From Iodidimonas nitroreducens (GTDB lineage: Bacteria > Pseudomonadota > Alphaproteobacteria > Sphingomonadales > Rhodothalassiaceae): a stretch of 64,000 nt of DNA. Shown in pieces: positions 33,615 through 48,109 of the stretch. Position 1 is the first letter of the stretch, and the number at the start of each line of letters is the position of its first letter. A model generated the notes under the pieces. That model made no database searches. It was not told where the DNA came from and saw nothing but the letters and a program-made list of their open reading frames with translations. The stretch spans positions 124,001 to 188,000 of the forward strand of contig BAYV01000009.1 in NCBI GenBank assembly GCA_000710935.1, given 5' to 3'. The position numbers and the translations under genes are program-made.

Positions 33615-33690
33615 CGATCCATGGATCAGTTCATCGCTGATGACGTGCATAGCGCCGGATGATCCATAAGACAAGAGCTGATGCACATAA

Positions 33691-33726
33691 AAAACGGCCG
33701 CTCACATTGCTGCAAACGGCCGTTTT
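33691..33726 (-). terminator. hup terminator
   Basis: AAAACGGCCG (33691-33700) pairs with CGGCCGTTTT (33717-33726); on the minus strand the stem is followed by a run of T, 30 nt after the HU stop codon. Confidence 0.85.
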
Positions 33727-33757
33727 CGGATTCAAATCCCCTTTGAACGGGATCCGA

Positions 33758-43458: not shown

Positions 43459-44883
43459 ATGCCAAAATATCTGAATATGACCGCGGCCGACCTTTTAAAG
43501 CTGTGCAAGGATGAAGATCTCACCTGGATCGACCTGCGCTTTACCGATCCGCGCGGAACCTGGCATCATCTGACCATGGATTCCTCTTTCATGGATGAAG
43601 AAACCCTGGAAGAAGGCCTGATGTTTGATGGATCTTCCATTGCAGGCTGGAAAGCGATCAATGAATCCGACATGGTTTTAAAGCCCGATCTAAGCCATGT
43701 GACCACCGATCCCTTCACCGCGCAGGGCACCGCCATCGTTTATTGCGATATTTTAGAGCCCGGCACCGGCCAATCTTATGAGCGCGATCCCCGCTCCACC
43801 GCCAAGCGTGCAGAGGAATATCTAAAATTCACCGGCATTGGCGATACCGTTTTCATCGGCCCCGAGCCGGAATTCTTCGTGTTCGATGATGTGCGGTTCA
43901 AGGTCGATTATTCCGGTGCCATGTATCAGCTTGATGATATCGAAGGCCCCTATAATTCCGCCAAGGTCTATCCTGAAGGCAATCAGGGCCATCGCCCCCG
44001 GGTGAAAGGCGGCTATTTCCCCGCTGGTCCGGTCGATTCTGCCTTCGATATGCGCGGTGAAATGGTCACGATCCTGCGCGAACTGGGCGTGAACATGGAC
44101 AAGCACCATCATGAAGTGGCCGCCAGCCAGCATGAACTGGGCATGACCTTTGGCAAGCTCACGGAAATCGCCGATAAAATTCAGCTTTATAAATATGTTG
44201 TGCGTCAGGTCGCGCATTCTTATGGCAAAACCGCCACCTTCATGCCCAAGCCGGTGAAAGATGATAATGGCTCGGGGATGCACGTCCATCAATCCATCTG
44301 GAAAGATGGCAAGCCGCTTTTTGCCGGTTCCGGCTATGCCGATCTTTCGGATATGGCCCTTTATTATATTGGCGGCATCATCAAACATGCCAAAGCCATC
44401 AATGCCTTCACCAATCCATCGACCAATAGCTACAAGCGCCTGACACCGGGCTTTGAAGCGCCGGTGCTGCTTGCCTATTCCGCGCGCAACCGTTCGGCAT
44501 CCTGCCGGATTCCCTATGGATCAAGCCCCAAGGCAAAGCGTGTGGAAGTGCGCTTCCCCGATCCGACCGCCAATCCCTATCTCGCTTTTTCGGCCATGCT
44601 GATGGCGGGGATCGATGGAATCGAAAACAAAATCCATCCCGGCGATGCCATGGACAAGGATCTTTATGCCCTGCCTCCCGAAGAGCTGACCAATGTGCCC
44701 ACCGTGGCCCGTTCTTTGCGTGAAGCACTGGAATCCCTGCAATCGGATAGCGATTTCCTGCGAAAGGGCGATGTGTTCACCCAGGATCAGATCGATGCCT
44801 ATATCCATCTAAAATTTGAAGAGGTCACGCGCTTTGAATTGGCGCCACACCCCATCGAATTCGATATGTATTACAGCGCCTGA
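43459..44883 (+). CDS. glnA: Glutamine synthetase type I
   Basis: 474-residue dodecameric enzyme that makes glutamine from glutamate and ammonia. Visible are [18 protein letters not shown], the metal/glutamate-binding [52 protein letters not shown] and the adenylylation site Tyr403 in [10 protein letters not shown], so activity should be controlled by GlnE adenylylation. It is 57 nt after glnB on the same strand, probably cotranscribed from the sigma-54 promoter, and ends in a strong terminator. Confidence 0.97.
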
Positions 44884-44920: not shown

Positions 44921-44963
44921 ACCCTGCGGCTGGGACCAAAACCCTTAGCCGCAGGGTTTTTTT
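44921..44963 (+). terminator. glnA terminator
   Basis: 11-bp stem ACCCTGCGGCT/AGCCGCAGGGT (44921-44931 with 44947-44957) followed by seven T. Confidence 0.9.
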
Positions 44964-45037
44964 ATGGGATCTGGCCTGCTTATAAAGATGGCCAGAAATA
45001 GGCTGAAAAATTCACGCGAGCCATCAGCAAAAAATGA

Positions 45038-45115
45038 TAAAAAAAAGCCGGAAGTCTATAAAGACCCCCGGCTCAAGTCGGATCCTTTGGGGAGGATCGC
45101 CTCACGAAGAGGCTG
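45038..45115 (-). ncRNA. Candidate three-hairpin small RNA with CCUCCCC loop
   Basis: Minus-strand unit of about 75 nt with no convincing reading frame. In order it has a hairpin GCCTC/GAGGC with loop TTCGT, then GATCCT/AGGATC whose loop and stem edge expose CCUCCCC (an anti-Shine-Dalgarno-like motif), then a terminator. A promoter-like pair lies immediately upstream: TTGCAA (45149-45144) and CAATAT (45126-45121) with a 17-nt spacer, placing a start near 45113. Several alphaproteobacterial small RNA families use CCUCC-containing loops to block ribosome sites; the resemblance is inferred from memory and structure, not a search. Confidence 0.5.
45039..45073 (-). terminator. Terminator of the candidate small RNA
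   Basis: On the minus strand AGCCGG...CCGGCT outer stem (45068-45073 with 45046-45051) and an inner GTCT/AGAC pairing, followed by eight T. No protein gene on this strand accounts for it. Confidence 0.85.
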
Positions 45116-45420
45116 AAGATATATTGCATCGCAATAATCAATTTTGCAACGCAAAAATGCAGTTGATCAAAAAATAATTTTCCTACCAGACTTAATGATT
45201 TGTTTATAAAATATAAATTTTTCAAAAGCTGGGCCTTGATATGCATTTCAAAAACGTGCTTTTTGGCCTGATTCATGGCTGAAAAACCACGCACTTCACC
45301 CCCTATTCGCCCCGCAAATTCGTTATCTGGAACACAATATGCTGCGGGCGAATAAAAACCTATTGAGAACATCCAATATTAAGAAATGCGAAAGGCACAA
45401 AGCCTAAAATCAAGCCTGGA
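45116..45420. other. AT-rich intergenic stretch
   Basis: 305 bp without a credible gene. The part from about 45150 to 45240 is AT-rich and probably carries the promoter of the minus-strand small RNA. A minus-strand frame 45073-45372 exists but runs through the whole small RNA and has no family resemblance. Nothing else is apparent. Confidence 0.5.
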
Positions 45421-46017
45421 ATGACCCATAAAGACCACAGCATGCCCAGCCACAAATCATCGATAGATCCGGCTGTATCCCAGCCTGCACCGCTGACCGC
45501 CCGTCAATCGGCCTTAAAGCCGCATCTGGCGGCGGCCAATATTGATGAGCGATCTTTTTTGGCAACGGATTATCTTAATCATTACAATGAGGTGGTGATG
45601 CTTCTTGAGATGGCACCTGATATGCCGGACATGCTTGAAGATGCCGCCGATTGGACCCCCAAAAGCTATCAGCAGCATTTCGCCGATAGCGGTTTTGCCG
45701 ACAAGGCTTTGGCGATCGAAGCCTATGACCATGCGCCCGGCGCCTGCCGTCTGCTTTTCGATACGCTGCGCCTGAAGCTCGATGCCCTTTTGCTGCAAAC
45801 GGTGGGCGATGTCGTGATGCTGGGTGATGATGCAAAGGCCATTGCCCGCCATCTGGAAGAGCCCTTAAAAGAAGCACAAAATCTATTATCCGCCCTTAAT
45901 GGGGTGATCCACGGCAAGATCGAACAGCCCAGTTGCAGCCCTGCACAAGAGGAGAAGGGCGATCAGATCGAAAGCACCGCCGCCAGCCAGGCGGATATCG
46001 ATGCCCTGTTCGATTAG
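45421..46017 (+). CDS. Unknown protein with SQADIDALFD tail
   Basis: 198 residues, no membrane segment or signal peptide. The central 130 residues look helical and structured, with NHYNEVVMLLEMAPDMP, WTPKSYQQHFADSGFADK and a second helical half (LKLDALLLQTVGDVVMLGDD). The C-terminus is a flexible acidic/Gln linker that ends exactly in SQADIDALFD. That ending resembles the SQxEIDALL peptide of FliM/FliN-type proteins, which in FliM binds phospho-CheY; whether it means anything here is inference. I think I have seen similar proteins in alphaproteobacteria but cannot name a family. An ATG at 45442 is an alternative start. parE follows on the same strand after 106 nt. Confidence 0.65.
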   Translation: MTHKDHSMPSHKSSIDPAVSQPAPLTARQSALKPHLAAANIDERSFLATDYLNHYNEVVMLLEMAPDMPDMLEDAADWTPKSYQQHFADSGFADKALAIEAYDHAPGACRLLFDTLRLKLDALLLQTVGDVVMLGDDAKAIARHLEEPLKEAQNLLSALNGVIHGKIEQPSCSPAQEEKGDQIESTAASQADIDALFD

Positions 46018-46123
46018 GCGCGAATTTCCAAGAGTCTATAAGATGTGGTTGCCATCCCCCCCCTGATACCGCCTATATAATGGGCTTCATCATTCGCGTT
46101 TTCAGTTGAGAGTAAACGGCCCC

Positions 46124-48109
46124 ATGGCTGATCTGTTTCAAGACGTATCGCATACCCCATCCACTTATTCGGCTCAGGATATCGAAGTTCTTGAAGGTTT
46201 GGAGCCGGTGCGCCAGCGCCCGGGGATGTATATCGGCGGAACCGATGAACGCGCCCTGCACCATCTGGTGGCTGAAGTCATCGATAATTCGATGGATGAA
46301 GCCGTGGCCGGTCATGCCAATCGCATCGATGTTGAGATGCGCGATGATGGCAGCATCATCATTGGCGATAATGGGCGGGGCATCCCGGTGGATGAACATC
46401 CGAAATTTGCCCCCAAATCGGCTTTGGAGGTGATCCTCACCACCCTGCATTCCGGTGGCAAGTTCAAGGAAGGGGCCTATGCCACATCGGGCGGGCTGCA
46501 TGGCGTGGGCATTTCGGTGGTGAATGCCCTGTCTGCGCATCTTGAGATCGAAGTGGCCCGCGAACGCACCCTTTATCGCCAGAGCTATGCCCGGGGGAAG
46601 GCCCTTGGCCCGCTGGAATGCCTTGGCCCGGTGCAAAATCGCCGGGGCACGCGGGTGTGCTTCATCCCCGATCCCGATATTTTTGGCGAAAAAGCCGCCC
46701 TCAAAGCCGCCCGAGTTTATAAGCTGGTGCGCTCGAAAGCTTATCTGTTTCGTGGTGTGGAAATCCGCTGGCGCTGCACTGAGGCCCTGATCGAAAAAGG
46801 AGACGACACGCCGCGCGAAGATACTTTGCATTTCCCCGGTGGGCTGGCCGATTTTCTGGGCGAAAGCCTGAAAGGCCGGACAATGGCCACAGAAACGCTT
46901 TTTGCCGGGATCGCGCAATTTCCCGATCAGGCCGGCAAAGTGGAATGGGCGATAGGCTGGCCGGAATTTGGCGATGGCCAGCTTTCCACCTATTGCAATA
47001 CCGTGCCCACCCCCCAGGGTGGATCCCATGAAGCCGGGCTGCGGATGGCGGTGCTGAAAGCCGTGCGCGCCTATGGCGAGATGACCGGCAATAAACGTGC
47101 CGCCCAGCTTGTGGCAGACGATGTTTTCACGAATGCAGCCGCGATGCTGTCGGTCTTTATTAAAAATCCGCAATTCCAGGGCCAGACCAAGGAAAAGCTC
47201 TCAAGCCCCGAAGCCACGCGATTGGTGGATAACGCCGTGCGCGATAGTTTCGATCACTGGCTGGCCGAACAGCCCGAGCGCGGTCAGGCGCTTTTAAGCT
47301 GGTCCATCGAACGCATGGATGAACGCCTGCGCCGCCGCGCCGAACGCGAAGTGAAGCGCGCGTCTTATACCTCGAAGCGCCGCCTGCGCCTGCCCGGCAA
47401 GCTGACGGATTGTTCGCAGGATAAAGCCGAGGGCACGGAAATCTATATCGTTGAAGGCGATAGCGCCGGAGGCTCGGCAAAGCAGGCCCGGGATCGTAAA
47501 ACGCAGGCCGTTTTGCCCATCCGGGGAAAAATCCTGAATGTGGCCAGTGCCACCGCCCAGAAAATCGCTGCGAATCAGGAAGTGAAGGACCTGACCCTGG
47601 CCTTGGGCTGCGGCGTGCGGGATCATTATAATGGCGATGCCCTGCGCTATGAAAAGGTCATCATCATGTGCGATGCCGATGTGGATGGGGCCCATATCGC
47701 CACCCTTTTGATGACCTTCTTCTTTCAGGAAATGCCGCAATTGGTGCGGGATGGCAGGCTTTATCTGGCCCAGCCGCCGCTTTACCGGCTGGCGAAGGGC
47801 GGGATCGTGCATTATGCCCGCGATGATGCCCATAAAGATGCGCTGATGGCCTCGGTTTTTGCCGGAAAAACGAAGGTCGAGGTGTCGCGTTTCAAGGGCT
47901 TAGGCGAAATGCCCCCCGCCCAATTGCGCGATACCACGATGGCGCGCGCCAGCCGCACGCTTTTGCGGGTCACTTTGCCCCAGCCGGGTGAAGGCTATCG
48001 GGTGATTGCCGATCTGGTGGGCCGATTGATGGGCAAGCGACCCGAGGATCGCTTTGCCTTCATTCAGGATCATGCCGAATTTGTGGATAAAAATGCGCTG
48101 GATGTTTGA
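46124..48109 (+). CDS. parE: DNA topoisomerase IV subunit B
   Basis: 661-residue ATPase subunit of the decatenating topoisomerase. The GHKL ATP site is seen in EVIDNSMDEAVAG, DNGRGIPVDEHP and GLHGVGISVVNALS; the TOPRIM domain has EGDSAGGSAKQARDRKTQAV and MCDADVDGAHI. Domain lengths and the opening IEVLEGLEPVRQRPGMYIGG favour ParE over GyrB. ATG at 46124 follows TTG at 46106; neither has a strong ribosome site. Confidence 0.94.
   Translation: MADLFQDVSHTPSTYSAQDIEVLEGLEPVRQRPGMYIGGTDERALHHLVAEVIDNSMDEAVAGHANRIDVEMRDDGSIIIGDNGRGIPVDEHPKFAPKSALEVILTTLHSGGKFKEGAYATSGGLHGVGISVVNALSAHLEIEVARERTLYRQSYARGKALGPLECLGPVQNRRGTRVCFIPDPDIFGEKAALKAARVYKLVRSKAYLFRGVEIRWRCTEALIEKGDDTPREDTLHFPGGLADFLGESLKGRTMATETLFAGIAQFPDQAGKVEWAIGWPEFGDGQLSTYCNTVPTPQGGSHEAGLRMAVLKAVRAYGEMTGNKRAAQLVADDVFTNAAAMLSVFIKNPQFQGQTKEKLSSPEATRLVDNAVRDSFDHWLAEQPERGQALLSWSIERMDERLRRRAEREVKRASYTSKRRLRLPGKLTDCSQDKAEGTEIYIVEGDSAGGSAKQARDRKTQAVLPIRGKILNVASATAQKIAANQEVKDLTLALGCGVRDHYNGDALRYEKVIIMCDADVDGAHIATLLMTFFFQEMPQLVRDGRLYLAQPPLYRLAKGGIVHYARDDAHKDALMASVFAGKTKVEVSRFKGLGEMPPAQLRDTTMARASRTLLRVTLPQPGEGYRVIADLVGRLMGKRPEDRFAFIQDHAEFVDKNALDV

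Follow-up and report, generated by a model that had tools for sequence, protein, structure and literature searches.

The αR8 RNAs (suhB/MmgR, RF00519), which include SisA-D of Caulobacter and the 77-nt MmgR of Sinorhizobium meliloti, are built from a hairpin, a CCUCCC anti-Shine-Dalgarno (anti-SD) core and a terminator. The sections cited here of one report define the family by a single-stranded 10-mer, UUUCCUCCCU, lying 3' of a weak hairpin, by a Rho-independent terminator and by a main copy beside an N-formylglutamate amidohydrolase gene, with paralogues elsewhere; they describe repression of CCNA_03574 by SisA through the 10-mer, backed by paired mutations, and state that no direct base-pairing target of MmgR is known (PMC12559287). 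In the cited part of a second report, PhaR represses the S. meliloti mmgR gene, which carries a site for it, and the phaP1 and phaP2 promoters have two PhaR sites flanking the -35 element (PMC12542648). As far as the cited portions of this literature go, MmgR is the sole small RNA (sRNA) under PhaR control. Anti-SD hairpins are also found in αr14/NfeR1, an sRNA linked to nitrogen metabolism that, in the description excerpted here, has three hairpins, each with an unpaired CCUCCUCCC, and is controlled by LsrB/NtrC. An sRNA of Enterobacteriaceae tied to glnA is, by the excerpted account, released from the 3' UTR of the glnA mRNA, on the same strand (PMC9731577).

Here we analysed a stretch of 64,000 nucleotides (the window) from Iodidimonas nitroreducens, whose 3.08-Mb genome is divided into 108 contigs and whose genus forms its own order, Iodidimonadales, in the NCBI taxonomy. 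The minus strand of the window, at about 45117..45040, almost certainly holds a real, conserved and unannotated sRNA gene. What is new is a pair of putative PhaR-type dyads in the promoter of this conserved, glnA-linked sRNA. A literature search by title and opening lines of the abstract, with most subscription papers outside its reach, returned no description of this RNA. A reading of the window's letters (the original prediction) had proposed the sRNA itself; it overlooked the two dyads, the conserved position between glnA and parE, and a separate MmgR in the genome.

Results

A predicted sRNA gene between glnA and parE

The predicted sRNA (45040..45117, minus strand) is about 77 nt long, with both ends predicted. 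The compact, independent noncoding unit proposed in the original prediction could be read directly, and its promoter and RNA are kept in relatives. Two promoter-like hexamers 17 nt apart, TTGCAA (45149..45144) and CAATAT (45126..45121, the -10 hexamer, identified by sequence and alignment), were located where they had been proposed. A scan with the E. coli consensus did not list this pair, the hexamers being weak by the E. coli rule, and returned one chance-level pair that starts inside the terminator. The transcript would contain, near its start, the GCCTC/GAGGC hairpin of the original prediction (hairpin 1, GCCTC-TTCGT-GAGGC, 45099..45113, minus strand) and end with the strong terminator and its eight T (45039..45074, minus strand; 13-pair stem at 45074..45045 plus T8).

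Between these elements lies hairpin 2 (GATCCT-CCCCAA-AGGATC, 45081..45098, minus strand; core AUCCUCCCCAAAGGAU), which had been described as presenting CCUCCCC. The motif is there (45095..45089) and is conserved, but its CCU is paired in the stem (unpaired probability 0.00-0.09), and the loop exposes only CCCCAA. A 76-nt fold had an energy of -38.1 kcal/mol (z -4.58), and none of 200 shuffled sequences folded as well. A terminator scan over 546 nt found one terminator against a shuffle mean of 0.9. Since such single-sequence scans do not set the promoter and terminator apart from chance, the reality of the sRNA rests on its conservation.

Concerning neighbouring genes, glnB-glnA lie on one side of the sRNA gene, and hyp198 followed by parE on the other. 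The glnA gene (43459..44883, plus strand; TIGR00653, 653 bits) is convergent with the sRNA gene and, by eye, is followed by its own terminator (about 44921..44966). hyp198 (45421..46017, plus strand) encodes a hypothetical protein of 198 aa with no match in a search of Pfam and NCBIfam profiles; in some of the relatives, homologues with 33-63% identity occupy the same place, with the sRNA gene on one side and parE on the other. The gene for topoisomerase IV subunit B, parE (46106..48109, plus strand, opposite the sRNA), scored 761 bits against TIGR01055, above the cut-off. Both glnA and parE are kept as neighbours in relatives.

As the original prediction had it, the terminator is not explained by a protein gene: we found no gene that owns it and none directly upstream on the minus strand. 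The locus is also unannotated as an RNA, as a search of the whole 64-kb window with Rfam release 15 at gathering scores gave five tRNAs and no other family. A mechanically called open reading frame of 99 aa (45073..45372, minus strand) overlaps the sRNA gene. It had no Pfam match above the cut-off, and its matches in relatives (E up to 0.3) span 9-27 residues over the sRNA promoter and start, with short matches in two different frames in I. muriae. The transcript itself contains two short frames, a GUG frame of 10 codons and a UUG frame of 6, and lacks AUG.

Conservation of the gene

BLASTN with a 141-bp query against 60 genomes, our own included, gave matches at E < 1e-3 in 4 of the 59 others, and weak matches in genomes G006 and G004 proved by sequence to be true copies. 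Because BLASTN alone reached 4/59 relatives, a covariance model was needed. In five of the first six relatives (L009-L013) glnA adjoins the sRNA; in the sixth (L020, genome G004) the 1.5 kb fetched to each side contained neither glnA nor parE. In the alignment of the seven sequences, judged by eye, the region from about -40 through the start and the RNA was kept, and the region farther upstream was not.

A covariance model (R1) was built from the seven sequences and applied to 396 genomes of the GTDB order, which we took to be Sphingomonadales and which included Sphingosinicella-type genomes. At E 0.01, 171 genomes had matches. Some weak R1 loci are a terminator without the core (by eye, at least 7 of the 23 loci L075-L097, namely L084, L089-L092, L094 and L096), so only strong or syntenic matches were used. 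A scan with a core pattern added 69 matching stretches, 42 of them linked to glnA or parE at a distance of up to 2 kb and 27 unlinked; the latter comprise 18 that by record title belong to other groups such as Pseudomonas, Clostridia and Rhodobacteraceae, one beside hyp198 (L125) and 8 of sphingomonad or other alphaproteobacterial type. Where a linked locus has parE nearby, the sRNA points away from it in 39 of 39 cases. Genera with linked loci include Sphingosinicella, Polymorphobacter, Sandarakinorhabdus, Pacificimonas, Hankyongella, Glacieibacterium, Rhodothalassium and Iodidimonas.

R1 aligned 45 of 46 loci into a model-biased alignment (A4), the unmatched one (L103) being a stretch that ends inside the terminator. 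The covariation score of A4 was 0.436 against 0.138 after shuffling (0/500 as high), and 13 pairs showed double changes against 9.3 (1/500). The share of cells that pair was 86.6% (68.9% shuffled), and sliding the structure by 1-3 columns reduced it to 36-61%. The double changes lie in the terminator (10 of 11 modelled pairs) and hairpin 1 (3 of 5), where compensatory changes bear out the stem conservation that the original prediction had set as a test; covariation is absent from hairpin 2 (0 of 5 pairs), whose sole support is that AUCCU and AGGAU can pair with either loop length. When the alignment was folded unaided, the terminator alone was predicted. Of the 45 rows, 44 contain the core AUCCUCCCCAA(A)GGAU unchanged, and in these the loop measures 5 nt (39 rows) or 6 nt (5 rows). 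This invariance is partly circular, as 36 rows came from a pattern that contains the core and the preceding GGC, fixing three bases of hairpin 1 as well, and it is informative only in the 9 other rows, 8 of which have the core. The promoter and the terminator lay outside the search pattern, and our assessment of the gene rests on these two and on its position.

The window sRNA scored 85.8 bits with R1 and 64.5 bits with R2, a model of the 45 sequences, its own sequence being part of both models. At E up to 1e-4, R2 matched 42 of the 396 order genomes, and 18 reached at least 50 bits, among them our own and several contributors to the model. Across the class, R2 matched 2 of 385 genomes, which were our own and one at 37.4 bits in which the core was not detected. 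A genome of the same genus (G001) had no match to R1 or R2. As far as these searches tell, with strict filters that lose weak matches, the gene appears to be patchy and confined to the order.

PhaR-type dyads in the promoter

The promoter contains two dyads 20 bp apart. The distal one, TTGCGTTGCAA (45144..45154, minus strand), overlaps the -35 hexamer TTGCAA and has a counterpart in part of the relatives; the proximal one, TTGCGATGCAA (45124..45134, minus strand), overlaps the -10 hexamer. We scored the window with a PhaR matrix built on 16 S. meliloti sites that the part of the source used lists as bound efficiently (PMC12542648). The distal dyad ranked first in the 64-kb window (18.8 bits) and the proximal dyad third (14.5 bits). 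One of 20 simulated 64-kb windows had a maximum above 18.8 bits; a single site of this score is weak evidence, and it is therefore the pair within one promoter that carries weight. The 9-mer cores of both dyads match TGCRNYGCA, and a search of all 3.08 Mb of the genome for the exact string TGCRNYGCA-N11-TGCRNYGCA gave one occurrence, at the sRNA promoter. Measured against the 21-mer Sinorhizobium consensus given in the cited part of its source, WNWD2NYGCRNYGCRNH2WNW (PMC12542648), the distal dyad has two mismatches and the proximal dyad one, all at the ends. For Bradyrhizobium, the excerpted report gives the PhaR site as TGCRNYGCASMA (PMC6201568); its SMA extension, compared by eye on either strand, is unmatched in both dyads.

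The genome encodes PhaR (TIGR01848, 158.9 bits; cut-off 109.45). Beside phaR lie genes for an acetyl-CoA acetyltransferase, an acetoacetyl-CoA reductase and a PhaC-like protein, the last of 386 aa and below the PhaC cut-offs. The two phasin-family genes (PF09361) served as a positive control for the matrix in this genome, and both have sites upstream, one gene at 26.1 and 22.2 bits and the other at 27.8 bits. PhaR is present in 358 of the 396 order genomes, so its co-occurrence with the sRNA says little. Among the 18 genomes with a strong sRNA match it was found in 16, and was not seen in G006 and G018, both fragmented.

Upstream of the core, a PhaR site of at least 10 bits was present in all 42 loci linked to glnA or parE, and one of at least 15 bits in 32. 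These loci are related and do not count as 42 independent events. The same threshold was reached by 3 of the 27 other pattern matches (L104, L125 and L133), and of the eight sphingomonad-type copies away from glnA and parE, two have a PhaR site. When the distance was counted from the model match in A4, an upstream site was found in 37 of 45 rows, compared with 1 of 45 for reversed upstream sequences and a mean of 0.18 of 45 for shuffled ones. In seven of the eight rows below 10 bits the model match begins inside the 21-nt site, which counted from the core scores 10.6-17.2 bits; L075 has the RNA and no PhaR site (-1.3 bits).

The 80 nt downstream, taken as a control, were not neutral, since 14 of the 45 stretches carried a site that reached 10 bits. 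Nine of these 14 (L099, L113, L142, L156 and L166 among them) have the dyad at a fixed 54-56 nt past the model match, which we interpret as a possible further PhaR-type site. In L100, L130 and L144 a slightly nearer downstream dyad precedes a reading frame whose start looks, by eye, like a signal peptide.

Comparison with known sRNAs

Among Rfam families, αR8 came closest to the sRNA below threshold (22.2 bits against a gathering score of 41; E 0.0056 in 106 nt), and we do not assign the sRNA to this family. It shares with MmgR and the αR8 RNAs the succession of hairpin, CCUCCC core and Rho-independent terminator. In contrast to those RNAs, the single-stranded 10-mer is absent: the core is AUCCUCCCCA, lies within a hairpin of its own and has its CCU paired, and the gene occupies another locus. 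No N-formylglutamate amidohydrolase gene is adjacent, the direct neighbours being glnA and hyp198, then parE; this is a weak test, because family paralogues also lie elsewhere. We therefore regard the sRNA as MmgR-like and outside αR8.

A separate MmgR is encoded elsewhere in the same genome (60.1 bits). Unlike the sRNA with its two dyads, this MmgR has no PhaR site (the best score is -3.8 bits over roughly 100 nt upstream and 5.7 bits over the 3-kb locus). A PhaR site of at least 10 bits was found in one (L049) of 30 fetched MmgR loci, our own included. In the reverse search, with E 0.05 as the limit, R2 matched 25 of these 30 loci at 18-36 bits. The second-best R2 match in the window (33689..33751, minus strand; 23.1 bits), situated upstream of tRNA-Val, looks by eye like the terminator that follows an HU-like gene. 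Because R2 gives this score to an ordinary-looking terminator, the mutual scores of the sRNA and MmgR may reflect terminator shape; distant homology between the two is a possible reading of the sequences.

Other described RNAs were compared as well. With αr14/NfeR1 the sRNA would share an anti-SD hairpin and a link to nitrogen metabolism, to judge from the partial account of the former; it has one CCUCCCC and no CCUCCUCCC, and does not belong there. With SorX (RF02784) it shares CCUCCC followed by a GC-rich terminator. SorX is derived from a 3' UTR. At E up to 10 the window region was unlisted for RF02784 (gathering score 46.6), and membership was rejected; the Rhodothalassium copy (L010) reached 37.7 bits against the same cut-off. 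The glnA-linked RNA of Enterobacteriaceae, which we take to be GlnZ, is described in its excerpted account as part of the glnA 3' UTR on the same strand, whereas the sRNA lies on the opposite strand with a predicted promoter of its own.

Similar elements were observed at other loci. In L079, L085 and L097 (family f6), a TTCCTCCCCAAGGAA hairpin and a terminator, resembling hairpin 2 and the terminator of the sRNA, directly follow the stop codon of amtB (PF00909 ammonium transporter in 3/3); such a hairpin is possibly a 3' UTR-derived relative of the sRNA, as judged from its sequence. Eleven loci of the same family (L241-L244 and L246-L252) contain a second sRNA-like type, GCCTTT(C/T)AGGC-ATCCTCTCCC-terminator or close to it, and three of them have an upstream PhaR-type site that reaches 10 bits (L246, 20.2; L249, 14.6; L250, 15.2). 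In L131, L134, L138, L150 and L157, which are of Sphingosinicella type, the core and terminator occur at another locus with a GTTGCAATTCCTGCAAC-like palindrome upstream, and no upstream match to the PhaR matrix reached 10 bits.

Discussion

A proposed mode of action

Taking these results together, we favour, with some reserve, the explanation that the gene encodes an MmgR-like, trans-acting sRNA controlled by PhaR (AniA), whose CCUCCCC hairpin pairs with ribosome-binding sites. Within it, PhaR control of the promoter is quite probable on the sequence of the dyads, and anti-SD action in trans, argued from the conserved core and the precedents, is fairly likely. Transcription, the binding of PhaR and its sign, Hfq and the targets are the parts that we infer. 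PhaR, a repressor titrated by PHB granules, would sit on both dyads, overlapping the -35 and -10 elements, and block the promoter. As PHB builds up, PhaR would be captured, as with the phasin genes of S. meliloti, and the sRNA of about 77 nt would be made. Hairpin 1 and the U-rich terminator would stabilize it, probably with Hfq, for which the U-rich terminator tail is the one Hfq-type trait seen. The CCUCCCC of hairpin 2, starting from the exposed CCCC(A), would then pair with G-rich ribosome-binding sites and lower translation, as SisA does. A precedent for the promoter is S. meliloti mmgR with its PhaR site and PhaR repression, as far as the cited part of that work goes; the sRNA promoter has PhaR-type dyads, and PhaR control is predicted.

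A crude duplex calculation was applied to 98 leaders that had been picked mechanically and whose starts are approximate; some are surely not genes. The phaA leader is absent, as a longer antisense frame displaced it. The leaders of phaB, phaC and phaR ranked 6, 27 and 46 of the 98 (top leader, -31.3). The two phasin leaders ranked 85 and 89 and look poor as targets, and glnB, glnA, hyp198 and parE paired weakly (-8 to -13 kcal/mol).

Alternative explanations

Because the dyads overlap the -35 and -10 elements, their conservation could be that of the promoter. One could accordingly accept the conserved sRNA, attribute the dyads to another regulator or to the plain core promoter, and seek a nitrogen-related function via glnA. 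The conserved position beside glnA would fit such a function, as would the similar CCUCCCC hairpins after amtB in three Sphingomonadaceae-type loci and TGC-N11-GCA, the NtrC motif in the NfeR1 promoter according to the portion of the literature cited. We consider this unlikely, since the palindromes fit the PhaR matrix beyond the hexamers, the same matrix marks the phasin promoters of this genome, and the TGC-N3-GCA spacing within the palindromes is that of PhaR sites in the cited part of the source. Far less probable is that the region consists of a terminator with chance hairpins, where transcription from upstream ends and no separate sRNA is made. The near-chance simple promoter and terminator scans and the ability of R2 to pick plain terminators would suit that reading; against it, no gene was found directly upstream on the same strand, promoter and hairpin 1 are kept together with the terminator, and the parE-linked copies point away from parE without exception.

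A further alternative concerns descent and is compatible with PhaR-controlled anti-SD action: the sRNA may be a diverged paralogue or an outlying member of αR8. Its standing as the best sub-threshold family, the R2 matches to most MmgR loci, the shared layout and the PhaR site of S. meliloti mmgR, reported in the cited part of PMC12542648, speak for it. Set against these are a score below 41, the missing UUUCCUCCCU, the placement of the core in its own hairpin, the 60.1-bit MmgR elsewhere in the genome, and the 23.1 bits that R2 gives to an ordinary-looking terminator, since terminator shape can yield mutual scores of that order. On balance we find such descent possible but doubtful.

Implications

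The finding may link carbon storage (PHB) to gene control in environmental bacteria of the genera Sphingosinicella, Polymorphobacter, Sandarakinorhabdus, Iodidimonas and Rhodothalassium. The gene offers a compact and directly testable promoter and seed, and the covariance model now covers sequences in the window that fell below every cut-off of Rfam release 15. An RNA that carries PhaR dyads and scores below the cut-off of the MmgR family would, as a second case, suggest that connecting anti-SD RNAs to the PHB sensor is a recurrent design. We tentatively raise the idea that in this order the PHB sensor acts through a second, separately evolving sRNA that has replaced MmgR, with the amtB hairpins as a parallel nitrogen branch. 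PhaR sites, absent from 29 of the 30 MmgR promoters, would then be found on the glnA-linked gene in their place, and one RNA would relay the state of carbon storage to the translation of nitrogen and carbon genes.
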